Assembly (NCBI GenBank): GCA_014896485.1
Contig: JADBKH010000026.1
Span: 1-46,825 of the forward strand
Reading direction: 5' to 3'
DNA: 46,825 nt
From: Bacillota bacterium
GTDB lineage: Bacteria; Bacillota; Bacilli; Bu12
Below are positions 9,959-32,586 of the stretch, one piece after another; the stretch's first letter is position 1; every line of letters begins with the position of its first letter. The notes beneath the pieces are model-generated. The model worked only from the letters and a program-made list of their open reading frames with translations, was not told the DNA's origin and ran no database searches. Position numbers and translations under genes: made by a program.

Positions 9959-11087
9959 CTACCCTGACACCGATGGGGCAGCAACCCCTATTTGGCTGCG
10001 CAGGTAGGCCTCGATGAAAGGATCGATCTCCCCATCCATGACTGCTTGGACGTTGCCCACCTCGACACTCGTCCGGTGATCTTTGACCATCTGGTAGGGT
10101 TGAAAAACATAGGAGCGGATCTGACTCCCCCACGCGATTTCACGTTGCTCCCCCTTCAGTTCGGCCATCTGCTTCTGCTGCTCCTCCAGCTTACGCTGGT
10201 AGAGTTTCGCACGCAGCACGGTCATCGCTGCTGCACGATTCTGAATCTGGCTGCGTTCATTTTGGCAACTGACGACGATACCTGTCGGCAGGTGGGTAAC
10301 GCGCACCGCAGACTCGGTCTTGTTGACGTGCTGTCCACCGGCACCGCTCGAACGAAAGGTATCGATCCGCAGATCTTCCGGCCGGATCTCGATTTCCTGA
10401 TCCTCCTCACCGATCTCGGGCAATACCTCGACAGAAGCAAACGATGTATGTCGCCGCGCATTCGCATCAAACGGCGAGATGCGTACCAGGCGATGCACCC
10501 CGTGTTCGCTACGCAAGTAGCCGTAGGCGTACTCCCCCGCAATGCGCAGGGTGGCCGACTTGATCCCGGCCTCTTCCCCTTCCAGCTCGTCTAACAGGGT
10601 GACCGTGTATCCGTGGTTTTCCGCCCAACGGGTATACATGCGCAACAACATCTGGCACCAGTCCATCGCCTCCGTGCCACCTGCTCCGGCATGCAGCGTC
10701 AACAGGGCGTTGTTCCGATCGTGGGGCTGGGAGAGCATCCATTGCAGTTCCAGTTGCTCGACACCTCGCTGCAAAGTTTGAAACGTCTCCTGAGCCTCCT
10801 GTCCGACCTGAAGATCGCCCTCTTCCTCCCCGAGCTCGAGCAACACCTCCAAGTCGTCGGCCAAGCGTACAAGCCGCTGCACCTGCTCGATCTGCGCTTT
10901 CAGACGGCTCATCTCATCCAACAACCGTTGTGCTTGTTGCGGGTCGTCCCACAAGTTCGGCTGAGCCGCCTGTTCGCTCAGCTCGGCCAATCGCTTTTCT
11001 TTGAAAGGGAGGTCAAAGAGAATCCCTCAGCTCAACGAGATGCTGACGCACCGGGGTGAATTCGATCCCGATCTCTTCCAATGTCAT
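9959..11087 (-). CDS. prfB: Peptide chain release factor 2 (programmed +1 frameshift)
   Basis: Release factor for UAA/UGA codons. The gene is in two frames: 24 codons from ATG 11085-11087 to CTT, then an in-frame TGA at 11013-11015, with the remaining 351 residues in the +1 frame starting GAC. The site CTT-TGA-C with AGGGA a few bases upstream (11023-11027) is the conserved RF2 autoregulatory signal, in which low RF2 favours the shift. The product of about 375 residues carries the SPF anticodon-like tripeptide (VRISPFDAN) and the GGQ loop (RSSGAGGQHVNKTES) that triggers hydrolysis. It lies 18 nt downstream of secA in the same direction, the gene order known from Bacillus. An annotation starting at 10990 would miss the N-terminal domain start. 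Confidence 0.97.
11012..11027 (-). promoter_or_regulatory. prfB +1 programmed frameshift element
   Basis: Minus-strand order: a Shine-Dalgarno-like AGGGA (11023-11027), a short spacer, then the slippery codon CTT (11016-11018) and stop TGA followed by C (11012-11015). All parts of the known RF2 recoding signal are present. Confidence 0.95.
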
Positions 11088-11105: not shown

Positions 11106-13964
11106 TTAAGCGTTCTCGACGCGGCCGTGACAGTACTTGTATTTTTTCCCGCTGCCACACCAGCACGGATCATTCCGCCCGATCTTGTGCTCATTTCGGA
11201 CCGGCTGCGGTGGGGCCGTTTCCGGCGATCTCCCCGAAGCAGCCGCGCCCTGTGCACGCTCTTCTCCTTCCGCCGACCACTGGGCACTGGGCTCTCCGAC
11301 CTGCCGGCGCCGAAAGGCATCCAACGAGGTCACGTTGGCGGAGACCACCGCCGGTTGCGCAGCAACACCCACGCCGACAGGCTGAGCCACCTCTTGTTCG
11401 ACCGAAGCCGTAGCCGTTGCGCCGCCCTCGGAAGGTGCCGCCGGCTGGGCAAGGGTGATCACGGCCTTGAAGACGAAGGTCGCAACCTCTTCTTGGATAG
11501 AAGCGATCATGTCGTCAAACATCTGCGAGCCTTCCAAACGATATTCGACCAGCGGATCGCGCTGTCCGTAGGCCCGCAGTCCTATTCCGTCGCGCAAATC
11601 ATCCATGGCATCAATATGCGCCATCCACTTGGTGTCGACGGCGCGCAGCACGACCATTTTGCAGAACTCATTGGTCAGCTGCGGACCCAGTTGGGCTTCG
11701 CGGGCATCAAATTGTTCGTTGGCATGGCGCAAAAGCAGCGTTTTGATCTCTTCTCGGGTCAAACCGTCGAAGTCGTCGAGCACCACCCGATTCGCGTCGA
11801 GAAACGTGTTGTGGCAATGGTCGAGCAACCCTTGCAAATCCCACTCATCGACCGGCACCCCATCCCCCATATAGGTGTCTAGAGCACGATCGATCACCGC
11901 TTCGACCATTTCCATCACAATGGGACGCAACGACTCTGCGCCGATCACTTCCCGGCGCTGCTTGTAGATGACTTCTCGCTGCTGATTCATTACGTCATCG
12001 TAATTGAGCACCTGCCGACGGGCTTCAAAGTTATTCGCTTCCATCTTACGCTGCGCCGACTCGATCGCGCGGGTGACCATGCGATCCTCAATCGGCTCAT
12101 CCTCTTCCAGGCCGAGGCGGTCGAGCAACGGTGCGATACGGTCAGCCCCGAAGCGTTTCATCAGGTCATCTTCCAGCGACAGATAGAAGCGCGTCTTACC
12201 CGGATCGCCCTGCCGGCCGGCGCGCCCACGCAGCTGATTGTCGATCCGCCGTGCCTCATGACGCTCCGTTCCGATGATGTAGAGGCCACCGAGCTCGACA
12301 ACCCGCTTTGCCTCTTCATCGGTGATCTGCTTGTATTTTTCCACCAGTTGCTGATAGCGTTCCCGTGCCTGCAGCACTTGTGGATCCTCTGTCGGGGTGT
12401 GCTCGACTGCTACCGCGAGGATCTCCGGGGGATAGCGATCGGCCAACTCCTGGCGGGCCAAGTACTCTGGGTTGCCCCCCAAAACGATGTCGGTTCCCCG
12501 GCCTGCCATGTTCGTGGCAATCGTCACCATCCCCAGGCGACCCGCCTGCGCGACGATCTGTGCCTCTTGTTCATGATACTTCGCATTGAGCACCTGATGA
12601 GGAATACCTGCCTTTTTGAGCAGGGCAGAGAGGTGCTCCGATTTTTCAATCGAAGTGGTACCAACCAAGACCGGCTGGCCCTCTTCGTGATGTTCCCGAA
12701 TATCCTTGACAACCGCCCGGAACTTGGCTGCTTCGGTCTTGTAGACCATATCCGGCTCGTCGGTACGGATCATCGGCCGGTTGGTTGGAATAATCACGAC
12801 TTCCAAGCCATAGATCTTCCGAAACTCTTCTTCTTCGGTTTTGGCAGTACCGGTCATACCTGCCAGCTTGTGATACATGCGGAAGTAGTTTTGAAAGGTG
12901 ATGGTTGCCAGCGTCTGCGTCTCGTTTTGAACTTCAACGCCTTCTTTTGCCTCAATCGCCTGATGCAACCCGTCACTGTAGCGACGGCCAAACATGAGTC
13001 GCCCGGTAAACTCATCGACGATGATTACTTCGCCGTCTTTGACGACGTAATCCCGATCGCGTTGCATCAATACCTGTGCTTTCAAGGCATTTTGGACAAA
13101 ATGGTTGAGCTCGAAATGATCGGGATCGAACAGGTTCTCGATGCCAAAATACCGCTCCGCCTTGCTCACCCCCTGATCGGTGAGGGCGACGGTCTTGGTC
13201 TTGGCATCAATGGTGTAGTCCTCTTCTGCATGCAACGTTTTGGCAAAGGCAGCTGCTTTGTAATACATGTCGGTCGACTTCTGTGCCTGCCCCGAAATGA
13301 TCAAGGGCGTGCGTGCCTCGTCGATGAGAATCGAGTCTACCTCGTCGACGATGGCATAATGCAATGGACGCTGTACCATCTGCTCGGCGTAGACGACCAT
13401 GTTGTCTCGCAAGTAGTCAAAGCCAAATTCGTTGTTCGTGCCGTAGGTGATATCGGCACGATAGGCCGCCTGTTTTTGCTCGGGTGGGGTATCGTGGATA
13501 TTGAGCCCAACCTGCATGCCCAAGAACTTGTAAATTTCTCCCATCCATTCCGAGTCGCGCTTGGCCAAGTAATCGTTGACCGTGACGATATGGACCCCTT
13601 TGCCCTCCAGCGCATTCAGGTAGGCCGGCAGGGTAGCGACCAGTGTCTTTCCTTCACCAGTCTTCATCTCAGCGATCTTACCTTCATGCAATACGATGCC
13701 ACCCAGCAGCTGGACATCGAAGGGGCGCATGCCTACCGTACGCCACGCCGCCTCTCGCACCGTCGCAAAGGCTTCAGGAAGAAGATCGTTGAGCTGCTCG
13801 CCATTGGCCAAACGTTCACGAAAGCGTACCGTCTGCTGGCGGAGCGCTTCATCCGAGCTGTTTTGCATTTCAGGTTCCAACGCATTAATACGCGCTACCA
13901 GCGGCTGTAATCGGCGTATTTCGCGATCATCGCTGGAAAAGCGCTTCTTGATTCCATCAAACAT
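11106..13964 (-). CDS. secA: Preprotein translocase ATPase SecA
   Basis: Motor ATPase that pushes unfolded preproteins through SecYEG. The 952-residue protein has Walker A MKTGEGKT at 100-107, the DEVDS Walker B box near 209, the preprotein cross-linking domain after about 225, the second nucleotide fold with [10 protein letters not shown] and the helical wing/scaffold. The C-terminus ends in the zinc-binding CxC-x8-CH motif ([15 protein letters not shown]) that contacts SecB or lipids. It is about 110 residues longer than Bacillus subtilis SecA because of a low-complexity Ala/Gln/Glu/Pro-rich linker before the zinc motif. GAGGTG precedes the ATG by four bases. It is followed directly by prfB. 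Confidence 0.98.
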
Positions 13965-15574: not shown

Positions 15575-16762
15575 ATGCGAGCCCATCGTACAATGGCGTT
15601 TCGATGGATGGGCCTCCTGTTGCTCTGCAGTATGCTCCTCGCTGGCTGCGCAGCGCCTTCGGCTACACTCTCTACTTCGAAAGAGAAGCACCCATCCGCT
15701 GCCACAGCCCAGCAGGCCAGCGTGCCTACAGCGGCACAGCCGCAGCGGGTGGAGCAACAACCTCTTCCACCTGCTTCCCCTCCACCGGTGCTGCTTTCGC
15801 CCACTCCAGGGAAACTTCCCGCCGCACAGCACTTTACGTTGCGCTTCGATCGCCCGCTCTCCAGCCTATTGGTAACCGGTGGTGCGTCTCAGACGCACCC
15901 CATCGATCCCGAGCAGACCCGCTGGGAGGTACAACTCACTCCTTTCGTGCAAGGAACGACCTACTCCTTGGGCATCCAACCGACCGGAAAAGACGGGACG
16001 ATCGGCGATCTATATCGTTTTCAGATGACGACTCCCCCGCCATTGCACGTCTGGGTCAATACCGACAAGATGCGCAGTGCGGGCGTGGCCATGCCAGTCG
16101 TGGTCGTCTTTACCGATACCATTCCACAGCAAGAGCGCACCCAAGTGGTCACCGCCCTACACTTTGATCCTGCGGTGGCGGGAGCATGGAAGTGGCAGAA
16201 CGATCACCAGCTGCAGTTTACGGGGAACAAGTGGTGGCCGGCCAACACCACCATCACCCTTACAGGTAAGTTGGCAGGCCTGCACGGCAAGCAGGGTGGC
16301 TTTCTCGAAAATGATCTGCGTTCCCAGTTTCATACCGGGCCTTTACGAGAGATTGACGTCCACTTGAGTACCCAGACCCTGGTCGCTAAAGAGAATGGCA
16401 AGGTGGTCACCCAGTTTCCCATCTCGAGTGGCCTCCCTGGCCATGAGACCCCCACTGGCAGCTTCTTCATCTATGAGCGGTATGCAGTCAAGGAGATGCG
16501 TGGCGATAATCCCAATGCACCCGACTATTACGACGTGCCAAATGTTCCTTATGCCCTCTATTTTGCCCGCGGTGGATACGCCATTCACGGTGCTTGGTGG
16601 CACAACGACTTTGGTCAGCCAATGAGCCACGGCTGTGTCAACGTCCCCACCAAGCGTTTTAACACACGCTGGCCCCAGGTACCGGAAAGGGCTGGCTGGC
16701 TCTACCAATGGGCCCAGCTGGGCACGCCTGTCATCGTCGACGGACATACACCAGGTGCCTAG
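15575..16762 (+). CDS. Lipoprotein L,D-transpeptidase (YkuD)
   Basis: Cell-wall enzyme that makes 3-3 peptide cross-links or attaches groups to meso-diaminopimelate. The 395-residue precursor has a lipoprotein signal (LLLLCSMLLAGC, lipid-modified C25), a Pro/Ala/Gln-rich tether to about residue 75, one or two immunoglobulin-like domains to about 265, then a YkuD domain. The catalytic signature is H338 in the IHGAWWHN segment with S351-H-G-C354-V-N. The ATG at 15575 has GGGGAGAGGG upstream; the frame is open much further 5' but antisense to the methyltransferase gene. The Ig-like plus YkuD layout resembles actinobacterial LdtMt2. Its stop codon shares a CTAG with the stop of the convergent HMG-CoA reductase gene. 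Confidence 0.93.
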   Translation: MRAHRTMAFRWMGLLLLCSMLLAGCAAPSATLSTSKEKHPSAATAQQASVPTAAQPQRVEQQPLPPASPPPVLLSPTPGKLPAAQHFTLRFDRPLSSLLVTGGASQTHPIDPEQTRWEVQLTPFVQGTTYSLGIQPTGKDGTIGDLYRFQMTTPPPLHVWVNTDKMRSAGVAMPVVVVFTDTIPQQERTQVVTALHFDPAVAGAWKWQNDHQLQFTGNKWWPANTTITLTGKLAGLHGKQGGFLENDLRSQFHTGPLREIDVHLSTQTLVAKENGKVVTQFPISSGLPGHETPTGSFFIYERYAVKEMRGDNPNAPDYYDVPNVPYALYFARGGYAIHGAWWHNDFGQPMSHGCVNVPTKRFNTRWPQVPERAGWLYQWAQLGTPVIVDGHTPGA

Positions 16763-18051
16763 CGCAATCCTCCCCGGGTGAGATGCGCCTCGTAAAAATT
16801 GGCGCTGCCTGCCACACTCATTGAAGCGATCGCCGAGATCTCCAGGCAAAGAACCGCAGCTGCGACCAGTTGCGCAAACTGTTGCGCCTTCCCAGCTCCG
16901 GCGCAGTCCATCAAGCGCAGGTAGGCACGGGCATAGGGTAGCGTCGTGCCCCCTCCGATGGTGCCGACTTCTATTGAGGGCATGCGCACCCCGAAATGTA
17001 CCGAACCGTCGGGGAGATTCCGTGAAGTCGTCTGGCACATTGAACTGGTTCCCACCATGCCGAGATCTTGGCCAGTCGCAGCGTAGATGGCTGCTACAGC
17101 CGTCGCTGGCGTAAAGGCAGAAGAGACCATGCCGCTGGAAATCGCCCCTTGCAGACCGACATGGGCAACGCGATCCAACTGTTGCGGCGTAATGTGCAGG
17201 ACCCGGGAGAGCACATTGGGAGTCAGTGTTGCTTCTGCTTCTGCAACTTTGCCGTGGCCCCCCTCGATAAAGTAAAGGTAGCTGACCTTCTTGTCGCCCC
17301 CCATGTTCATCTCCAGGTACCACTCTTCAGGTTCTATGCCGGTCTGTGAGCGAAAGCGTGGTACCACAAACCCTTCGTTAAGGACATAGGCATTGCGTGT
17401 CGCAAGATTGGCGCCGACGGCATCTCCCGTGGAAAACTGATAGAGCAGATGGCAGGTATCCCCCAACACGAAAGGGCGAACGGCCAAAAGTTCGGCATGG
17501 CGTGAAATGGGAGCTACACCATTGGGCCGCTGCTTTTGCCAAGAAGGCGGAGGATCTTGCAGCCAATCGTGCATCTCCTGCTCATGTGCTTGCACCCACC
17601 GGGCCAAAGCAACTGCTTCTTGGGTACTGTGCAGCAAAAAAGCCGAGTCACGGGTAATGCGATCGTCGAGCAGAAACGTACGAATTCCCCCAGAAAGGGA
17701 GGTTGCAATGATCCCACGTTGCATCGACGCAGCCAATCCACCTTCCGTCTCTGCCAGCGGCAGGTAGAAGGCCCCCTCCTGGCGGCCGCTCTCTCTCAAG
17801 TGACGATCTTCGAAGGCGTACGTCCCATATTGTACCTGCATCGGTCCGCAGACGGCGACCGGCCAAACCATGCTGCCCGTCTGGGCTTCCAGTGCATTGG
17901 CGTACGTAGCGTCGCCGCCAGGGCCGGGTGTTTCAAAGATAAAATCGTCCTCTGCCGACCAATGTGGCAGGGCGCGGAGGATATCGCGACGTTGTGCAAT
18001 CTGTTCCGGCTTGTTCTTGCGTGGCCAACGTAGTGGATTTCCCTCGGTCAT
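16759..18051 (-). CDS. Hydroxymethylglutaryl-CoA reductase family protein
   Basis: NADPH-type reductase fold that converts HMG-CoA to mevalonate (or the reverse). All four catalytic residues of the class I enzyme can be placed: E103 (AETEGGL), K254 (GGDKKVSY), D329 (ATGQDLG) and H423 (YEAHLTRGG). The nucleotide-binding TGDAVGANLA corresponds to GDAMGMNM in the classical enzymes, and SIEVGTIGGGT is conserved. At 430 residues it has no membrane domain. It diverges from textbook HMGR in the DKKVSYLYFIEGGHG stretch. It lies 41 nt downstream of the heparinase-like gene in the same direction, with GGGGAC before the ATG. No other mevalonate-pathway gene is in the window, so pathway role is open. Confidence 0.87.
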   Translation of the reverse strand: MTEGNPLRWPRKNKPEQIAQRRDILRALPHWSAEDDFIFETPGPGGDATYANALEAQTGSMVWPVAVCGPMQVQYGTYAFEDRHLRESGRQEGAFYLPLAETEGGLAASMQRGIIATSLSGGIRTFLLDDRITRDSAFLLHSTQEAVALARWVQAHEQEMHDWLQDPPPSWQKQRPNGVAPISRHAELLAVRPFVLGDTCHLLYQFSTGDAVGANLATRNAYVLNEGFVVPRFRSQTGIEPEEWYLEMNMGGDKKVSYLYFIEGGHGKVAEAEATLTPNVLSRVLHITPQQLDRVAHVGLQGAISSGMVSSAFTPATAVAAIYAATGQDLGMVGTSSMCQTTSRNLPDGSVHFGVRMPSIEVGTIGGGTTLPYARAYLRLMDCAGAGKAQQFAQLVAAAVLCLEISAIASMSVAGSANFYEAHLTRGGLR

Positions 18052-23254: not shown

Positions 23255-24595
23255 ATGGGCACCATTGCCATACGGGAGCCACTTCCCGGTCCGCGTGCTC
23301 GGCAAGTACTGGCAGAGCAGGCCGATTTCTTGCCTGCTGCGCTGGCCAGCAGCCTCCCAACCGTCGTTGCTGAAGGACACGGGGCGGTGGTGACCGACGT
23401 AGATGGCAATCGGTTGATCGACCTGTCTGGGGGCTTCGGATGCCTGGCGGTTGGTCACAGTCATCCTCATGTGGTCAAAGCAATCCAACAACAGGCAGAA
23501 CGCTTTTTGCATACCGATTTCAGCGTGCTGCCCTACGCCTCGTATATCGAACTCGCCGATCGCTTGGCAAAGCTCGCCCCAGGTTCATCGCCCAAAAAAG
23601 TTGCGCTGTTTAACAGCGGAGCCGAAGCCATCGAAAATGCGATCAAAATCGCCCGCCAACAGACCGGACGCCCGGCCCTGCTCACCTTTGAAGGCGCCTT
23701 CCATGGCCGGACGATGGGCGCACTCACCTTGACCAGCCAACCTTCCCCCTACAAAGTGGGCTTTGGCCCTTTTCTTCCGGAAGTCTATCGCGTCCCGTTT
23801 CCCAACCCTTACCGAAACCAACCTCCCCAGCAGTTGACGGCCCAGACGCTTGAAACCCTGGAACGAATGTTGCACACCGCTGTCGACCCCCGCACAGTCG
23901 CTGCAGTCGTGGTGGAACCGATTCAGGGAGAAGGTGGCTTTGTCGTTCCGCCATCAGATTTTTTGCCTGCCCTGCGCACCTTTTGTGACGCGCACGGTTT
24001 TCTGCTGATCGTCGATGAGATACAAACCGGCTATGGGCGGACAGGCACCTTTTTCGCTTGCGAGCAGTACGGTGTCGAACCTGATCTGCTCACCATAGGC
24101 AAATCGATTGCCGCAGGCCTGCCTCTCTCTGCAGTCGTCGGCAGATCGACGATCATGGACGGTATCGTGGCGGGCAGTATTGGCGGCACCTATGTCGGCA
24201 ATCCCGTCGCCTGTGCTGCAGCGTTGGCTGTGCTCGACGTCTTTGAATCGGAAAAGCTCGTCGAACGTGCACAGCTTCTTGGCCAAAGGCTTTGGGAACG
24301 CCTCTCGACGTGGCAGCAGAAGTACCCATTGATCGGTGACATCCGTGGCGTCGGCGCCATGCGAGCCTGCGAATTGGTCTTGGATCGCGAGACGCGGCAA
24401 CCGGCTCCCCAACAGACAGCCGCCATCCTCCAAGATGCGGCCCGGCGCGGGGTTATTTTGGCCAAAGCCGGAATCTACGGCAACGTGATCCGCTTTTTGA
24501 TGCCGCTGGTCACCCCTCTAGAAGTCCTGGATGAGGCGCTCGATGTGGTAGAATTTGCCTTTGCAGAGGCTGAAAGCAACCGAGGAAGTAGGTGA
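23255..24595 (+). CDS. Class III aminotransferase (4-aminobutyrate/ornithine type)
   Basis: PLP-dependent omega-aminotransferase of 446 residues. It shows NSGAEAIENAIKIAR (120-134), FHGRTMGALTLT, D254 in IVDEIQTGYGRTG and the PLP lysine K283 in TIGKSIAAGLP. Overall pattern is closest to GabT-type 4-aminobutyrate aminotransferases, but ornithine or acetylornithine are possible amino donors. It leads an operon with carbamate kinase (3 nt gap) and arginine deiminase, so an arginine-derived amine is an attractive substrate (inference). A strong AAAGGAGAGGG site precedes the ATG. Confidence 0.92.
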   Translation: MGTIAIREPLPGPRARQVLAEQADFLPAALASSLPTVVAEGHGAVVTDVDGNRLIDLSGGFGCLAVGHSHPHVVKAIQQQAERFLHTDFSVLPYASYIELADRLAKLAPGSSPKKVALFNSGAEAIENAIKIARQQTGRPALLTFEGAFHGRTMGALTLTSQPSPYKVGFGPFLPEVYRVPFPNPYRNQPPQQLTAQTLETLERMLHTAVDPRTVAAVVVEPIQGEGGFVVPPSDFLPALRTFCDAHGFLLIVDEIQTGYGRTGTFFACEQYGVEPDLLTIGKSIAAGLPLSAVVGRSTIMDGIVAGSIGGTYVGNPVACAAALAVLDVFESEKLVERAQLLGQRLWERLSTWQQKYPLIGDIRGVGAMRACELVLDRETRQPAPQQTAAILQDAARRGVILAKAGIYGNVIRFLMPLVTPLEVLDEALDVVEFAFAEAESNRGSR

Positions 24596-24598
24596 GGC

Positions 24599-25597
24599 AT
24601 GGCTTTCCCACTCACAGAAGCCGTCGCCCAGAAAGATGCGCTGCAGGGCCGGGCGATCACCGTCTTGGCCGTAGGCGGCAACGCCATCGAACGGCCCGGT
24701 ACACAACTCTCTTACGCCACCCAACTGGCGACCGTTCGCACCACGGCCGCACAGCTGGCTCCTTGGCTGGCCAGCGAGGCCCCTGTTGTCGTGGTGCATG
24801 GCAATGGCCCACAGGTCGGACGGCTGTTGGCCCAAAACGAAATCGCCTCAGAAGGGATCCCCGCATTGCCACTCTCTGCAGTGGTAGCAGAGAGCCAAGG
24901 CCTGCTCGGTGCCATGCTCCAACAGGCTTTTCAAGAGGCACTGGCGCAGCAGGGCAGTTCGCGGCCGGTAGCCACCATTCTCACACAAAGCATCGTCGCA
25001 GCCGACGATCCTGCGTTTGAGCGTCCCACCAAGCCCATCGGACCGCTGCTTTCCAGCGAACGGGCCCAGCAAATTCGTCGGGAAGGGGGCGAAGTCGTCA
25101 AAGAGATCGGGGGCGGATGGCGCCGTGTGGTCGCTTCACCACGGCCGCTTCGTTTTTTGGAAGAGGAGCCCATCCGCCAGTTGACAGACAGTGGCGTTGT
25201 CGTCATTGCAGCTGGCGGTGGTGGCATTCCGGTCGTGGCGGAGACGCCATCCCAACTCCGCAGCATTGACGCGGTCATCGACAAGGATTATGCGGCAGGT
25301 AAGCTGGCCGAGCGCATAGGGGCACAGCGATTGATCATCCTGACTGCAGTAGAAGGAGTTGCACTCGATTTTGGGACGCCTGCTCAGCGCTACTTGCGGG
25401 AGTTGACAGTTAGCAATGCCCTCCAACAACTGCACTACGGTCAATTTCCACCAGGTTCAATGGGACCCAAGGTGGAAGCTTGTGTCCAATTCGTACGCTC
25501 AGCGCCGGGCCGTGAAGCGATCATTGGTTCTCTTGAACAGGCTGCTGCTGTCCTGTCGGGCACAGCTGGGACGCGTTTTATCGATGAGCCACGTTAA
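24599..25597 (+). CDS. arcC: Carbamate kinase
   Basis: Transfers phosphate from carbamoyl phosphate to ADP, giving ATP, ammonia and CO2 at the end of the arginine deiminase pathway. The 332-residue protein has AVGGNAI near residue 24, VVVHGNGPQVGRL near 62, AAGGGGIPV near 204 and the IDKDYAAGKLAE segment, all typical of the amino-acid kinase fold in ArcC. The first 18 residues are an unusual extension. It starts 3 nt after the aminotransferase stop and precedes arcA by 33 nt. Confidence 0.95.
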   Translation: MAFPLTEAVAQKDALQGRAITVLAVGGNAIERPGTQLSYATQLATVRTTAAQLAPWLASEAPVVVVHGNGPQVGRLLAQNEIASEGIPALPLSAVVAESQGLLGAMLQQAFQEALAQQGSSRPVATILTQSIVAADDPAFERPTKPIGPLLSSERAQQIRREGGEVVKEIGGGWRRVVASPRPLRFLEEEPIRQLTDSGVVVIAAGGGGIPVVAETPSQLRSIDAVIDKDYAAGKLAERIGAQRLIILTAVEGVALDFGTPAQRYLRELTVSNALQQLHYGQFPPGSMGPKVEACVQFVRSAPGREAIIGSLEQAAAVLSGTAGTRFIDEPR

Positions 25598-25630
25598 ACG
25601 GATCGTCACTTTTCATCAAAGGAGCACCAG

Positions 25631-26872
25631 ATGGCAAAGCCCTTTTCGACATCCGAACCGATTCAGGTGAGTATCACGTCTGAGATAGGGCGATTGCGTG
25701 CCGTACTGCTTCACCGACCTGGCCCTGAGCTGGAACGGTTGACACCAGAGACGTTGGACGAGTTGCTCTTCGATGACATCCCTTGGATCGACCGCGTACA
25801 GCAAGAGCACGACGCGTTTGCCCAGCTTTTGGTACAGCAAGGGATCCACGTCTACGAGCTAGAGGATCTCGTTACAGAAGTACTGCAACAGCCCCAAGGT
25901 GCAGCAGCACTCGTGTCTGCACGCATCCACACGGAGACCATGGACGAGAAGCATCGTGAAACACTTTCCACATGGCTGCTCAATCAGCCGCCGCAAGAAC
26001 TGGCCCGCTACCTGATGGCAGGCGTCTTGCGTTCGGATGCTCCGGATCTGACCTCCCAGCAGCATTTGCGGGGTTGGGTTCCCGAACGCTACCCGTTTCT
26101 CTTGCTGCCATTGCCCAACCTTTATTTCACGCGCGACCCAGCGATGGTGATCGGATCGACGGTCATCACAGGAACCATGCGCATGCTGGCGCGCCGTCCG
26201 GAACCGCTCTTTTTGCAGACTGTCCTGGGTTTCCATCCTGCTTTTCGCCAAGTGGATCGGCTGCTCTCCCCCACCCATCCCTTTAGCTTGGAAGGGGGCG
26301 ATCTCCTGGTGCTCTCCGCTCAAGCCGTTGCCATCGGTTTTGGGCAGCGGACACAGCCTGAAGCGGTGGAACATCTCGCTGAAAAATGTTTTGCCGCCCA
26401 GCCACAACTCGAGCACGTCCTCGCTGTCCAACTTCCTTCTGAACGTGCATTCATGCATTTGGATACCATCTTGACGATGGTCGACGTCGGCCGTTTTGTC
26501 ATCTATCCGGGCATTGAAGATGCGCTGCGCACTTTCTCATTGGAACGGGAAGACGAGGAGGGGGCGTTCCACATCGTTGCATATTCAAGCCTCGCCGATG
26601 GCCTTCAGCACGTGCTGGGCGGCCGTGCACCTGAGTTGATCGCTTGTGGTGGCAACGATCCGATCATCTCCGCCCGGGAACAGTGGAACGATGCTGCCAA
26701 TACCTTGGCACTTTCCCCTGGACGCATCATCACGTACGATCGCAATGTTGTTTCCAATCGCATCTTGCGCCTAAGCGGTCTGGAGGTACTCGAAATCAGC
26801 GGTTCCGAGCTCTCCAGGGGACGTGGTGGCCCCCATTGTATGTCTATGCCACTTCAACGCGATCCGATTTAA
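25631..26872 (+). CDS. arcA: Arginine deiminase
   Basis: Hydrolyses arginine to citrulline and ammonia. The 413-residue protein starts SEIGRLRAVLLHRPGPELERLTP, has the FTRDP motif (YFTRDPAMVIG), FSLEGGDLLVL, the FMHLDT histidine loop and the nucleophile C403 in GRGGPHCMSMPL. ATG is preceded by AAAGGAGC. arcC lies directly upstream, but no ornithine transcarbamylase or ArcD antiporter is in the window. The last codons overlap the possible start of the downstream membrane protein. Confidence 0.97.
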   Translation: MAKPFSTSEPIQVSITSEIGRLRAVLLHRPGPELERLTPETLDELLFDDIPWIDRVQQEHDAFAQLLVQQGIHVYELEDLVTEVLQQPQGAAALVSARIHTETMDEKHRETLSTWLLNQPPQELARYLMAGVLRSDAPDLTSQQHLRGWVPERYPFLLLPLPNLYFTRDPAMVIGSTVITGTMRMLARRPEPLFLQTVLGFHPAFRQVDRLLSPTHPFSLEGGDLLVLSAQAVAIGFGQRTQPEAVEHLAEKCFAAQPQLEHVLAVQLPSERAFMHLDTILTMVDVGRFVIYPGIEDALRTFSLEREDEEGAFHIVAYSSLADGLQHVLGGRAPELIACGGNDPIISAREQWNDAANTLALSPGRIITYDRNVVSNRILRLSGLEVLEISGSELSRGRGGPHCMSMPLQRDPI

Positions 26873-27377: not shown

Positions 27378-27386
27378 AACCACGTA

Positions 27387-27407
27387 ATGGCCCCTCTAGG
27401 GGGCCAT
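27387..27407. terminator. Hairpin between convergent QueT-like and CotF-like genes
   Basis: ATGGCCCC (27387-27394) and GGGGCCAT (27400-27407) form a perfect 8-bp stem with a 5-nt loop, 9 nt after the QueT-like stop. U-tracts on either side are short, so it may work moderately in both directions. Confidence 0.55.
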
Positions 27408-27448
27408 CATCTTGTAATGGGACCACCGATGAAGCATCTGTTGGCTTG

Positions 27449-28021
27449 TCAGGCGTTGATCTGGTTGGCATCTTGGATGCACTGCTGAATGACGGTCGCC
27501 ACCGCCTGTGTCTGCTCGGAGGTAGCATAACGGACCTCGTAGCCCTGATGGGCATGCAGCCACTGCCACAATTGCATCTGCTGCTGGGAGCACTGCTGCG
27601 CCATCTGCTGAAACATTTGACGCGCTTGCTGGCTCGCCGATTCCGTAGCACCCCTGCTCGCCTCAGAGGCCCCCACCTTGGCCAGGATCATCATCAGATC
27701 GGCTTTTTCCCTGTCACTGATGGGCAGGCTTGCACCGGCCGTCGGGGTCGCAGTCGGTGCCTGACCCAACGTTCCCACTTCAGTCCGGAAAGGAGCATTG
27801 CCCTGCCTCCCTTGTCCGCTGGCAGAAGCGGCAGTGCCGAGTCCTTGGGTCATCTGCTGCAAATGCTGCATGGCCAACTGGCCACTGCGCTGAAACATCT
27901 GCTCCAATTGCGTGTCCTGTGCCCGGGCGCACAGCGTTTTGGAAAGCTTGTGGGCCAAGCCTTCAATGCGTGCACACTCTTCCATGGTTTCGATTTCCTT
28001 GGTCGTCCACTGCACGGGCAT
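27449..28021 (-). CDS. Gln-rich helical protein, CotF-like spore coat candidate
   Basis: A 190-residue protein with two similar helical halves, residues 1-60 and 100-190, joined by a Gly/Ala/Pro/Thr-rich linker. The second half (SDREKADLMMILAKVG, then QQARQMFQQMAQQ and WLHAHQGYEV) follows the CotF pattern of a helix pair ending near a GWY-like turn. Glutamine and methionine are enriched, as in many coat proteins. The start at ATG 28021 has GGAGG four bases upstream; the longer open frame lacks one. It is isolated between convergent and upstream genes. Role in the spore is inferred from family resemblance only; no clear sporulation promoter was found. Confidence 0.6.
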   Translation of the reverse strand: MPVQWTTKEIETMEECARIEGLAHKLSKTLCARAQDTQLEQMFQRSGQLAMQHLQQMTQGLGTAASASGQGRQGNAPFRTEVGTLGQAPTATPTAGASLPISDREKADLMMILAKVGASEASRGATESASQQARQMFQQMAQQCSQQQMQLWQWLHAHQGYEVRYATSEQTQAVATVIQQCIQDANQINA

Positions 28022-28220: not shown

Positions 28221-29234
28221 TCAAGGATGGGGAAGCGTGACGACAAGGATGCCTTCGCGATCGCTCTCTGGAACCACACGCAAAAATCCCTTGCGGGCTC
28301 CGATATCGCGATACCCCTTTTCACTCGTTACCGCCGAGCGGGAGAAGATGGCGGACTGCCCAAAGAAGTCCAGATCAAAGAGGGATCCACACATCATGGG
28401 ATTGAGCGCGTAAGCAAAGGTGCCTGTGCCCGCCACCGCGCGCCAGGATCCTTCCGACCATTCTTGTTGTTGTGCAGGCGTCCATGGAGCCGGATTGGCC
28501 GACGGCTGTACCAAAATATCGGCCCGTAGCGTTGCCAGCCGTGCAAGGATCGTTTCCTGGAACGCATCCAAACAGACAGCGACGCCGATACGCCCAACTT
28601 CGGTATCGACGACCGACAACTGGGACGGATCTCCTGCGTGCAGCTGCAGCCCTTCCCGATCTTCCAAGGGCGTAAGAAAGCACTTTGGCCAGGCACCCAA
28701 AATGCTGCCGTCGGGGCCGAACAGGTAGGCCGTGTTGTAGATATGCGGATCGACGGGACGAAGGGAAACACGCCCGCCTTGAAGGAGATAACGCGGACCT
28801 TCAAAGGAACCGCCCAGCACATACATGTGGTACCGCGCCGCCAGTCGCGAGAAGGTAGAAAAATAAAGCTGCGCCGCTCCTTTGCTGCGCGCATACCAGA
28901 GCGCCTCTGGCCAGCTCAGTCGAAAGCGCAACCGTGCCGCAGAAACGGCAAAGCGGTGTCGCTGTATCTCGCGAGTCAACGCCTCTTGCATGGTGGCAGA
29001 ACCGATCAGCGCCGCGTACTCCCCGGCTGCGATCAGCGGCAGACCAAGATCCTCCGGAAAAGCCACGAGCGTAGGCAAGCCAGGTGCAGCACGTGCGACC
29101 ACATCTTCCATACACGCTGTCAGATGCGCCACCCATTGCTGGGGCTCCAAAAACTCCTCGATGCGCCAACAATACTGCACCACTGCCAAATTGATTTGGT
29201 CGGCCACGGAAGCTCGGGATCCCCCTCTCTTCAC
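28221..29234 (-). CDS. Carbon-nitrogen hydrolase (nitrilase family)
   Basis: Amidase or N-carbamoyl hydrolase of the nitrilase superfamily, about 337 residues. The Glu-Lys-Cys triad is visible as AFPEDLG, WPKCFLTPLED and AVCLDAF. The protein is longer than usual between the Glu and Lys motifs (a segment around ARLRFRLSWPEALWYARSKG). The GTG at 29234 overlaps the upstream stop as GTGA; other possible starts are GTG 29252 and GTG 29207. It ends the four-gene run with hpf, a PfkB kinase and an unknown protein. Substrate is unknown. Confidence 0.88.
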   Translation of the reverse strand: MKRGGSRASVADQINLAVVQYCWRIEEFLEPQQWVAHLTACMEDVVARAAPGLPTLVAFPEDLGLPLIAAGEYAALIGSATMQEALTREIQRHRFAVSAARLRFRLSWPEALWYARSKGAAQLYFSTFSRLAARYHMYVLGGSFEGPRYLLQGGRVSLRPVDPHIYNTAYLFGPDGSILGAWPKCFLTPLEDREGLQLHAGDPSQLSVVDTEVGRIGVAVCLDAFQETILARLATLRADILVQPSANPAPWTPAQQQEWSEGSWRAVAGTGTFAYALNPMMCGSLFDLDFFGQSAIFSRSAVTSEKGYRDIGARKGFLRVVPESDREGILVVTLPHP

Positions 29235-30385
29235 GTCACGATTTCGCTGCACCCTCCTGCATCACGAGAGGATGCGTGTTCCTTGTGGAGCGTTTTTGGC
29301 AGCTGAGCGGGCAAGAATCGGACTGCGCCGCTGACCAGCGCATGTCCCCCACAGAGGATGGGCAATGGAGCGGCCGCCAGTGCTTCTTGCCACCGATCAA
29401 ACCACTCTTCCCCCCTGTTTTCGGCATCGCCGAGATCTGCCCTAAAGCGCAGCTCCTCCTCCCAGTGCAGTCCAAGGTGGGCCCACAGGGGGCGCGTATC
29501 CCACAATACCGCATCGGCGACCTGGCCCAATGCCTGCAAAAAAGCTGGCAGACCGACCGATTCGACAAAATAGCCGAGCAGCGAGCGAACTGTCTCTTCA
29601 TGCGTACGCCCCAACGCTTTCATGCCTCGCTCCTCCGAAAAAACACGGATACGCAGACGCAGATGGGCATTCAGAAAAGCGACCGCATGGGGAGGAACCC
29701 GTCCGATCAAAGCCAGTTCCGTATACGGATGATCGGCCAACGCCGACAAGACGGCATCCCGGCGTTGGCGAGGCCAATCGATCGTGGCAAGAAACGACGC
29801 CAGATGGGGACCCAAGTGGGGGTGACCTTCCATCATCAGCAGTTCAGTGGGTGTGTCGAAGTCGCAGATCCACGGCGTCTCCAGTGGCAAAAGCTGCAAA
29901 GGCAAACCTGTCCGCTCGCTGAGCGAGACCGCAAGTTGGTTGTCTGAACAGTACAACGGTCCCGGAAGCAACGCTTGTGCGAGCGTCGCTGGGGCAAAGG
30001 CGGTCATATCGGCGGATTGGGGATTGTTCGCCCAGATTCCAGGGCGCTGCAAGCGGGCAGCGATCTCCGCAAAAGAAGAAGCATCCAGCAGGGGAGCAGC
30101 AGCGCCCCCGAGACAGAGCAATCCCTGCGCCCCAAACCGGGCGGCAACATCTACCAAGAGGGCGGCCAACCCCCCTGCTGTCGGCATGGGCACTGCGATG
30201 GCCCCCTCTTGCCGTGCCTGCAGGGCCACTTCAGCTCGATTGGTAGCAACGACCACTGCTGCATAAGTCCCCGAAGCAAGTAACCGCTCGACCGTGTCCC
30301 ATGTTGCTGCGCGCCGTGCAGTCCGCATCTGCGCACTTCTCCAACCAAAGACAGGCGGCTCACCTGCGAGCACGAGTGCCACCAC
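29231..30385 (-). CDS. Uncharacterised protein with nucleotidyltransferase-like N-terminus
   Basis: I do not recognise this 384-residue protein with certainty. It begins VALVLAGEPP and has alternating strands and helices, a CSDNQLAVSLSERTGLPLQLLPLETPWICDFDTPTEL segment resembling the end of a GT-A/MobA-like nucleotidyltransferase domain (residues 145-185). A second all-helical region (about 210-320) includes ALIGRVPPHAVAFLN and RVFSEERGMKALGR. The typical G-G-x-S-x-R-hG-x-x-K loop is missing, so catalysis is uncertain. The start GTG lies 5 nt after the PfkB stop and the end overlaps the nitrilase start by 4 nt, so it is in the middle of a coupled operon. Function not assigned. Confidence 0.7.
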   Translation of the reverse strand: MVALVLAGEPPVFGWRSAQMRTARRAATWDTVERLLASGTYAAVVVATNRAEVALQARQEGAIAVPMPTAGGLAALLVDVAARFGAQGLLCLGGAAAPLLDASSFAEIAARLQRPGIWANNPQSADMTAFAPATLAQALLPGPLYCSDNQLAVSLSERTGLPLQLLPLETPWICDFDTPTELLMMEGHPHLGPHLASFLATIDWPRQRRDAVLSALADHPYTELALIGRVPPHAVAFLNAHLRLRIRVFSEERGMKALGRTHEETVRSLLGYFVESVGLPAFLQALGQVADAVLWDTRPLWAHLGLHWEEELRFRADLGDAENRGEEWFDRWQEALAAAPLPILCGGHALVSGAVRFLPAQLPKTLHKEHASSRDAGGCSEIVT

Positions 30386-30390
30386 GCCGG

Positions 30391-31335
30391 CTATAGCGCC
30401 ATCTCCTCGACCCTCACCTCTTCAGCCAGTTGACGGGCCAGTTCGGCCGAAAAAAAGGGACCCTCATCCGATTGAGCACAGGCCGTCCCTGCTCCTGCTC
30501 CCAGTGCCAAGGCCTCCTGCATCGGCTTGTGTTGCTGGAGCGCAGTCAGCAGCCCAGCTAGAAAGGCATCCCCTACACCAACGGCATTTTGGGCCTCGAC
30601 AGCAGGTCCATAGTAATGGTAGCAACGGGAGCCATCGGAACAAAAGCCCCCCAGACGACCGATCGAAACAATCGCCCATTGCGCCCCGCGCTGGGCAATC
30701 TCTTTGGCTGCCAAGGCAAACTCATCTGCTGCATAGAGCAGGCGGCCCAGCAGCGCTTCGGTTTGTTCCTGATCCGGCTTGACCAAAAACGGACGCGCCT
30801 GGATGATCTCGGCCAACGCATCCGGCGTCGCATCGGCTACCACGGCAAAGCCGCGTTGTGCAGCCTTGCGTGCCAACTGGGCATAATACCTCTTGTCCAC
30901 CCCAGGGGGCAGACTGCCTCCAATTACGATGCTGTAGGCACCCTCTGCCAGTTCAAAAAAGGCTTCTTCTACTTCTTCCAGCAATCGTCTGCCGACCGTT
31001 GCACCCGGCTCGTGCACCCGCGTATGCTCACGAGTGGCAAGATCGATGATATCGACATTCTGTCGGGTAGGCTCTGACGTCCAGACAGGACGTACGCTCA
31101 CACCAGCAGAACTGAACGACTGAACCAATTGGCGACCGCTCTCCCCACCACAGACAAAGACCGCTGCGCTCTCCCCACCCAGAGTACGCACGCCCCAAGC
31201 GACCTGCAGCCCATGGCCGCCTGGCGCACTCCGCACCCGGACGGCACGGTTGACCTCGTTGAGCGTCAAACGAGGCACTTCCAAAAAGCGATCGACCGAA
31301 GGATTCAGCGTCAAGGTTACAATCGTGGCGACCAC
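30391..31335 (-). CDS. PfkB-family kinase, 1-phosphofructokinase/tagatose-6-P kinase like
   Basis: A 314-residue ribokinase-fold sugar kinase. TLTLNPSVDRFLEV at the N-terminus and the phosphate/substrate segment IGGSLPPGVDKRYYAQL match the FruK/LacC branch. Two conserved sites are altered: the GGKGINVA motif reads GGHGLQVA (residues 39-46), and the GAGDxFxAG catalytic loop is GVGDAFLAG, keeping the aspartate near 253. It is positioned 4 nt after hpf and 5 nt before the unknown protein gene. No fructose PTS or sugar regulator is nearby, so the substrate may differ from fructose-1-phosphate. GTG start with GAGGGG directly ahead. Confidence 0.85.
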   Translation of the reverse strand: MVATIVTLTLNPSVDRFLEVPRLTLNEVNRAVRVRSAPGGHGLQVAWGVRTLGGESAAVFVCGGESGRQLVQSFSSAGVSVRPVWTSEPTRQNVDIIDLATREHTRVHEPGATVGRRLLEEVEEAFFELAEGAYSIVIGGSLPPGVDKRYYAQLARKAAQRGFAVVADATPDALAEIIQARPFLVKPDQEQTEALLGRLLYAADEFALAAKEIAQRGAQWAIVSIGRLGGFCSDGSRCYHYYGPAVEAQNAVGVGDAFLAGLLTALQQHKPMQEALALGAGAGTACAQSDEGPFFSAELARQLAEEVRVEEMAL

Positions 31336-31339
31336 CCCC

Positions 31340-31924
31340 TCACCCTTCTGGAGCGATCAATCCGCAACTGCCGTCACGACGGCGATAAACGACATTCACT
31401 TCTCCGTCATCGGCGTTCTTAAACACAAAAAAGTTGTGACCCAGCAACTCCATTTGCAAGATCGCCTCATCCACCGTCATCGGCTTGAAGGCGAAGCGTT
31501 TGACACGCACCAGTTCCGGAGGCTGATCTTCTTCTTCTTCGGTTTCCGCGCCTCCCATAGCGTGGTTGGCGGATACAGCACCGCCAGCCACGGCTTGTGC
31601 CGCTTCATTCACTTCCGCTGTCTTTTGGCGCAACTTGCGATGGATCCGGGTCTTATACTTGCGAATTTGGCGTTCGAGCTTATCGGCGACCAAGTCGATC
31701 GCTGCGTACATGTCGTCCGTACGTTCCTCCGCACGCAACACCAAGTGGTTGAAGGGCAGCGTCACCTCTACAATGTGCTGTCCTCGTTGGACAGAAAGGG
31801 TCACGGTCGCTGGAGAAAGCGCCTGCAGGTTGTATCGCTCATCGAGGCGACCTATCTTTTTTTCAACGTACGTGCGCAGTGCGTCGGTAACCGTCAGGTC
31901 TTTTCCATGTACGTTGATTTGCAT
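31340..31924 (-). CDS. hpf: Ribosome hibernation promoting factor, long form
   Basis: A 194-residue protein that dimerises 70S ribosomes into inactive 100S particles when growth slows. The N-terminal S30AE domain (1-105: INVHGKDLTVTDALRTYVEKKIGRL) sits in the decoding/tRNA region; an acidic linker (115-140) leads to the C-terminal dimerisation domain (LVRVKRFAFKPMTVDEAILQMELLGHNFFVF). AAAAGGGGTG precedes the ATG. In many Bacilli hpf lies beside secA, but here it is 17 kb away and heads a leftward run with a kinase, an unknown protein and a nitrilase. The upstream gap could hold an alternative-sigma promoter, which I could not identify clearly. Confidence 0.96.
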   Translation of the reverse strand: MQINVHGKDLTVTDALRTYVEKKIGRLDERYNLQALSPATVTLSVQRGQHIVEVTLPFNHLVLRAEERTDDMYAAIDLVADKLERQIRKYKTRIHRKLRQKTAEVNEAAQAVAGGAVSANHAMGGAETEEEEDQPPELVRVKRFAFKPMTVDEAILQMELLGHNFFVFKNADDGEVNVVYRRRDGSCGLIAPEG

Positions 31925-32094
31925 CGAAACACCCCTTTTCTACAACGATAGCAACGGCAGTTGCCAAGGAGGGTCCACTCCTCTTCTTTGATGATAGCCG
32001 ATCTCGCTCCCAATGCCCACCTCTACGACCAAACCGATTGAACTATTTCCATCCCCTGTTTGGTCCGGTAAAATAGATAGGAGGAGGCCAAAAT

Positions 32095-32586
32095 GTGGCG
32101 ACCATGACGCTCCCGCGGCACTTTATCAGCGGCACCCATCAACACCTCAGTTGGGATGATATGGTCTCTGACATGCTCCGTTTCGTCACAGCTTTTCCAG
32201 CCGACGATTTTCACTGTATCATCGGCACTGACTCGCAACCGCGCTTACAGTGCCGTTTTGTAACGGCCATTGTGCTCCACCGGATCGGGCATGGTGGCCG
32301 TTTTTATTACGCCTACTATCCCGAAGAAAAGACGCCTGTGCTCAGCCAGCGCATGTACGAGGAAGCAGCGCGTTCGCTTTTGGTCGGCGAAATCCTACGA
32401 GAACGCTTCGCCCATACGCCCCTGCAGCAAGTTCCAATGGAAATCCATCTCGATGTCGGGCTGCATGGTGCAAGTCGGCAGGTGGCCAGCACGCTGCGTG
32501 CCCTGGTTGAACAGAGCGGGTATATTGCTCGCATCAAACCCGATGCTTTTGGAGCTTCCAAGGTCGCCGATCGCTATACCAAATAA
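32095..32586 (+). CDS. YkuK-like RNase H-fold protein (DUF458)
   Basis: A 163-residue protein of the YkuK/DUF458 family, with the GTDSQ segment (residues 44-48) that in this family sits at the start of an RNase H-like fold. Hydrophobic strands alternate with helices to the C-terminus ASKVADRYTK. The GTG at 32095 is preceded by GGAGGAGG with 7 nt spacing; the ATG two bases earlier runs into a stop after four codons. It is divergent from hpf and convergent with the MFS gene. Cellular role is unknown. Confidence 0.9.
   Translation: MATMTLPRHFISGTHQHLSWDDMVSDMLRFVTAFPADDFHCIIGTDSQPRLQCRFVTAIVLHRIGHGGRFYYAYYPEEKTPVLSQRMYEEAARSLLVGEILRERFAHTPLQQVPMEIHLDVGLHGASRQVASTLRALVEQSGYIARIKPDAFGASKVADRYTK

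Follow-up and report, generated by a model that had tools for sequence, protein, structure and literature searches.

The ribosome hibernation promoting factor HPF occurs in almost all bacteria. In Bacillus subtilis its gene, hpf (yvyD), stands in the order hpf-secA-prfB. The analysis presented here concerns a 46,825-nucleotide stretch of DNA from a Bacillota bacterium (GenBank assembly GCA_014896485.1, contig JADBKH010000026.1), referred to below as the window, and in particular a protein of 384 amino acids encoded behind hpf in that stretch, for which the label NTx was coined in this work. Two described proteins serve for comparison. YwlG of Staphylococcus aureus is a metabolic enzyme that binds HPF (PMC9522360). 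FbiD binds phosphoenolpyruvate (PEP) via two Mg2+ ions on D116, D188 and D190, together with S166, T148 and G163 (PMC6450877). NTx, which is conserved behind hpf in about 30 families, provides a concrete and testable candidate for a link between hibernation and metabolism.

The NTx family and its linkage to hpf

In a preliminary description of the window, made from the sequence alone, the 384-residue protein was listed as unrecognised. It is indeed unclassified: no match to NTx was found in Pfam, NCBIfam, PHROGs or PADLOC, and a single-sequence search for its nearest relatives returned nothing. Profile searches ruled out the orphan status suggested by that result. A scan of genome contigs with NTx identified 148 relatives, from which 80 loci were kept for analysis of gene context. 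In nearly all of these, hpf preceded NTx in the same orientation, whereas neither the kinase nor the nitrilase gene was present in any. Two sets of genomes were then considered that had been chosen without regard to hpf, and NTx was present in 77 of the 399 drawn from the phylum and in 10 of the 400 sampled in the window's class, the remaining 390 being without it. It is apparent that NTx represents a large, uncharacterised two-domain family that is distributed across the Bacillota and encoded directly behind hpf.

Of 156 NTx loci, 146 had hpf upstream in the same orientation; once duplicates had been removed, this was true of 140 of the 145 loci that could be tested. In the unbiased draws (the phylum and class sets), hpf lay a short way upstream, likewise in the same orientation, at 78 of the 83 testable loci and in 29 of 32 families. 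Tumebacillus flagellatus is among the carriers of the pair. The median gap between the two genes is 72 nt. Since hpf would be encountered as a random upstream neighbour approximately once per few thousand genes, this linkage is far from chance. What recurs across 29 families is the hpf-NTx pair, and not the set of four genes (hpf, a PfkB-type kinase, NTx and a nitrilase) that the preliminary description had treated as a unit; the order of the four is not maintained across genomes, whereas the pair is kept phylum-wide.

Among the wide loci, the arrangement hpf-NTx-(0–4 kb)-secA was found in 30 of 31, usually with prfB next. The window contains a broken version of this block, in which secA and prfB lie approximately 14 kb past the nitrilase gene, on the same strand. 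The earlier statement that hpf is normally beside secA thus holds in altered form, as NTx is normally located between the two. NTx was kept with hpf, with no secA found nearby, in four cases (the window, L214, L059 and L038). The genes between NTx and secA differ by lineage, and the adjacency of hpf and NTx is far more constant.

In many lineages the NTx-secA interval (e.g. L012:2320-4519 and L061:8032-9824) encodes a protein of approximately 215 amino acids with a weak LeuA_dimer-like match, together with a DUF5317 protein and a membrane protein judged by eye to be HD-GYP-like. A role for NTx in SecA-dependent secretion was considered from the block and rejected, synteny alone lying behind it.

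The kinase of the window is one more of the lineage-specific genes that have been inserted after hpf and ahead of NTx. In one lineage a B12-binding radical SAM enzyme is encoded next to NTx, between the two genes in L009, L039 and L099 and before NTx in L003. Open reading frames (ORFs) recognised by eye between the two genes include one of approximately 137 amino acids that is Fic/Doc-like (L002) and a peptidase-like one on the opposite strand (L143 and L147).

Domain structure of NTx

An AlphaFold model of NTx was obtained with a predicted local distance difference test score (pLDDT) of 91.4 and a predicted template modelling (TM) score of 0.89. The structures nearest to its N-domain are those of 7p97 (3-phosphoglycerate guanylyltransferase), 6bwg (FbiD) and 2i5e (CofC), with Foldseek E values of 1.4e-8 (target TM score 0.67) and 8e-8 for the first two, and a profile match to 6bwg was also found (E value 1.3e-4). 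Model and profile together place the N-domain among the GT-A nucleotidyltransferase folds, in the CofC/MobA/KdsB group. The preliminary description had spoken of a nucleoside triphosphate (NTP)-transferase-like protein lacking its loop, and this was borne out by alignment, profile and Foldseek alike; no LAGG-type loop is present in the aligned N-domains.

The alignment contains 42 NTx members, which are 29–38% identical to the window copy and share 35 invariant positions. D175, D177, T178 and P179 (DxDTP) are invariant in all 42, and further invariant N-domain residues are T48, N120-N121, S124, D126 and D148-N149. In the profile alignment, read by hand, D188 and D190 of FbiD correspond to D175 and D177 of NTx, T148 corresponds to the invariant D126, and the S166 loop aligns with the D148-N149 region. 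The pocket has thus been kept but rebuilt, which may reflect a change of substrate or a displacement of the metal site.

Conservation of the C-domain (residues 192–384; 22 invariant positions) exceeds that of the N-domain. Its near-invariant motifs include RVFSEERGMKALGR, DTRxxxxH and GGHSLVSG, as well as RxRVFSEERGMKALGR and RFxSDLG, and the window copy retains the invariant residues. There was no significant match to this domain among PDB sequences, and no confident match in fold searches (best E value 0.016), viral structures giving the same result. Aspartate transcarbamoylase (E value 0.016), PPK2 and a small TOPRIM domain were candidates that were not used, with TM scores of about 0.2–0.3. 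As the C-domain lacks a confident match in Pfam, NCBIfam and solved structures, a structure of it could define a new domain.

Some NTx proteins carry C-terminal extensions. A TrkA_C match was above the cut-off in L003 (40.3 bits) and just below the cut-off of 27 in L178, L112 and L121 (26.5 to 20.9 bits). Such RCK_C-like (TrkA_C) extensions occur in NTx members of three families, and the window copy is without one. A different extension, of approximately 90 residues and without a match, is present in L133, L106 and L107. RCK_C domains act as cyclic di-AMP (c-di-AMP) receptors in several Gram-positive proteins. By analogy, control of the NTx proteins with RCK_C-like extensions by a ligand is plausible, and that ligand may be c-di-AMP.

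The proposed role of NTx and competing explanations

NTx is tentatively predicted to be an enzyme that uses or senses NTPs as part of the growth-arrest or hibernation programme, a reading to which a probability of roughly 0.4 may be assigned. It is considered the best explanation because of the hpf-NTx linkage with its short median gap, the survival of the pair where secA has been separated from it, the GT-A model and profile match, the 35 invariant positions, the RCK_C-like extensions and the precedent of YwlG. The N-domain would bind an NTP or a nucleotide-linked ligand via the invariant aspartates of DxDTP and other unvarying residues close to them. The C-domain, with its many invariant Arg, Glu, Asp and His residues, would contribute the other half of the active site and accept a partner substrate that is phosphorylated or anionic in some other way. 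Produced together with HPF when growth stops, NTx would make, remove or sense a nucleotide-linked metabolite associated with ribosome hibernation. In some lineages the RCK_C-like domains would place this activity under small-ligand control, plausibly that of c-di-AMP, and the PfkB kinase and nitrilase of the window would be lineage-specific neighbours outside the mechanism.

Several observations weigh against this proposal. The position of the first metal-binding aspartate (D116 in FbiD) falls on a non-acidic residue, A96, and is not conserved, so catalysis by NTx is not assured. In addition, the N-domain of the window copy no longer has FEGG and FHFG, two motifs of the family. With respect to the linkage, five loci with enough upstream DNA are without hpf, and in L177 NTx was kept with secA while hpf is gone. 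Both secA and prfB share the block, in 30 of 31 and in most of the wide loci, respectively. Moreover, NTx tree distances correlate equally with those of HPF and of SecA (0.53 each; HPF-SecA, 0.70), so that HPF does not stand out as the linked partner, and NTx may have been co-inherited with the block.

These last points bear most directly on the main rival explanation, that of passive synteny, which must be regarded as a serious possibility. In that case NTx would be a metabolic enzyme unrelated to hibernation, acting for example in the NTP activation of a phosphorylated metabolite; its gene would have been inserted a single time, between hpf and secA, in an early ancestor of the Bacillota, and inherited vertically with the block ever since. 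The prevalence of the hpf-NTx-secA block, the equal agreement of the trees and the presence of unrelated genes in the block are all consistent with such a history. It accounts less readily for the broken blocks, four of which have left NTx with hpf and one with secA, or for an hpf-NTx adjacency that is far steadier than the gene content between NTx and secA.

A catalytically dead nucleotidyltransferase, now serving as a nucleotide- or metabolite-binding regulator (of HPF, for example), is an unlikely alternative, although the replaced metal aspartate, the missing LAGG-type loop and the RCK_C-like sensor domains on some members would all suit it. Throughout the family there is no variation in the second aspartate pair or in many of the polar residues of the pocket, and the dense invariant charged residues of the C-domain resemble an active site.

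The prediction of an NTP-using or NTP-sensing enzyme may also be taken further, in that NTx might make a nucleotide-linked starvation signal, or might nucleotidylate either HPF or a ribosomal partner. In this way it would control entry into or exit from hibernation in a large part of the Bacillota, and its RCK_C variants would respond to c-di-AMP. This extended version is improbable.

The linked pathway envisaged in the preliminary description, in which hpf, kinase, NTx and nitrilase would together serve one dedicated dormancy pathway for a nucleotide-sugar or amide metabolite, has been largely refuted, despite the tight packing here and the lack of a strong terminator between the genes: the kinase and nitrilase genes were found near NTx or hpf in no other examined genome, and relatives of the nitrilase sit in unrelated gene contexts elsewhere, even in NTx-carrying genomes such as G270 and G317.

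The locus in the window and its relation to described systems

The features of the locus are listed in Table 1. The tight packing of the four genes was confirmed: all run one after another in the same direction, on the minus strand, with gaps of 4 nt (hpf-kinase) and 5 nt (kinase-NTx) or a short overlap. The interval initially given for the cluster, 29231-31924, covers hpf, kinase and NTx but omits the nitrilase named with them. The NTx-nitrilase junction varies with the nitrilase start that is chosen: the longest ORF gives a 22-nt overlap, a start at 29234 a 4-nt GTGA overlap and the GTG at 29207 a short gap. Just two terminator-like matches, both weak, were found inside the cluster on the minus strand, and the overall number of such matches is near chance (6 found, 4.5 expected). 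The layout of the cluster and its promoter- and terminator-like sites fit a single transcript, but these sequence features fall short of proof.

Table 1. Features of the hpf-NTx locus and of the displaced secA and prfB genes in the window
Feature	Coordinates	Strand	Evidence
hpf, long HPF, 194 aa	31340..31924	minus	PF02482, PF16321 and TIGR00741 above cut-off
PfkB-type kinase, 314 aa, 1-PFK/hexose kinase group; inserted locally, separating NTx from hpf	30391..31335	minus	TIGR03168
NTx, 384 aa, conserved hpf partner	29231..30385	minus	No Pfam/NCBIfam match
NTx N-domain, residues 1-191, predicted GT-A nucleotidyltransferase fold	29813..30385	minus	Foldseek and profile match
DFDTP motif, NTx residues 175-179, equivalent of FbiD D188/D190	29849..29863	minus	D175, D177, T178 and P179 invariant in 42 members
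NTx C-domain, residues 192-384	29234..29812	minus	No confident known match
FSEERGMK signature, NTx C-domain residues 249-256	29618..29641	minus	Each of its eight residues invariant across the 42 members
Nitrilase-superfamily (carbon-nitrogen) hydrolase, 343 aa, local neighbour	28221..29252	minus	PF00795
Promoter-like site 5' of hpf	31991..32019	minus	9/12 consensus matches, weak evidence
Terminator-like hairpin 3' of Coat_F-like gene	27385..27409	minus	10-pair stem, strong
secA, displaced third member of ancestral hpf-NTx-secA-prfB block	11106..13964	minus	TIGR00963 above cut-off
prfB, end of ancestral block	9959..10990	minus	By sequence; served as query for prfB beyond secA elsewhere

The hpf product is a genuine long HPF, with a ribosome-binding N-domain and the S30AE C-terminal dimerisation domain. 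The kinase scored 250.8 bits against TIGR03168 (cut-off 216.4) and 231 bits against the 1-PFK equivalog TIGR03828, below the cut-off of 292. Its catalytic GxGD motif is kept as GVGD, and its first signature is altered (PGGHGLQVA). An ordinary PfkA is also encoded in the genome, and a single other match to the kinase, a distant one, was found. The nitrilase matched PF00795 (CN_hydrolase) with 54.2 bits (cut-off 23.2), and its Glu-Lys-Cys triad columns are conserved among relatives, one of which (L225:3573-6614) adjoins a TypA/BipA-like translation GTPase gene (by eye). None of the four proteins matched the anti-phage defence families of PADLOC, and searches of PHROGs and Rfam gave nothing.

A Coat_F-domain (spore-coat type) protein is encoded directly 3' of the nitrilase (27449-28018, minus), ahead of the hairpin at 27409-27385, and its gene may share the cluster transcript. 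An RNaseH_like (PF04308) protein is encoded divergently from hpf (32095-32586, plus). Between NTx and secA there are an HMG-CoA reductase gene (16759-18051, minus), adjoining that of a heparinase II/III-like protein, and an opposite-strand run (23255-26872, plus) with aminotransferase, carbamate kinase and arginine deiminase-like genes (by eye).

Open-licence papers on HPF and nucleotidyltransferases, on gene neighbourhood and on the hpf-secA-prfB operon were searched and yielded no description of the hpf-NTx pair, which is not proof of its absence from the literature. The fold of the N-domain is already known; as far as searched, the combination of the N- and C-domains with linkage to hpf is undescribed.

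The closest described enzymes are the 2-phospho-L-lactate/PEP/3-phosphoglycerate guanylyltransferases CofC and FbiD (TIGR03552; 7p97, 6bwg and 2i5e), with which the NTx N-domain shares the predicted GT-A fold and the DxDTP metal pair. TIGR03552 was matched weakly by 17 of the 42 NTx members, the best with an E value of 4.8e-4, far below the family cut-off, and not by the window copy. Unlike CofC and FbiD, NTx does not have the full three-aspartate, two-metal site, the first metal aspartate being gone; its substrate loop is changed, and it possesses an extra C-domain of approximately 180 residues without a known counterpart. The KdsB/NeuA cytidylyltransferases and MobA-like NTP_transf_3 proteins (PF12804 and PF02348) have the same fold and are matched weakly by some NTx members, but NTx differs from them in having no LAGG loop and a different C-terminal half, and the window copy gives no match. 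YwlG (PMC9522360) would be comparable as an HPF partner resembling a metabolic enzyme, if NTx acts on HPF; it differs in that it resembles glutamate dehydrogenase rather than a GT-A protein, and its link to HPF comes from a pull-down and not from gene order. With regard to gene order, the Bacillus-type hpf(yvyD)-secA-prfB block also underlies the NTx locus, the difference being the presence of NTx between hpf and secA.

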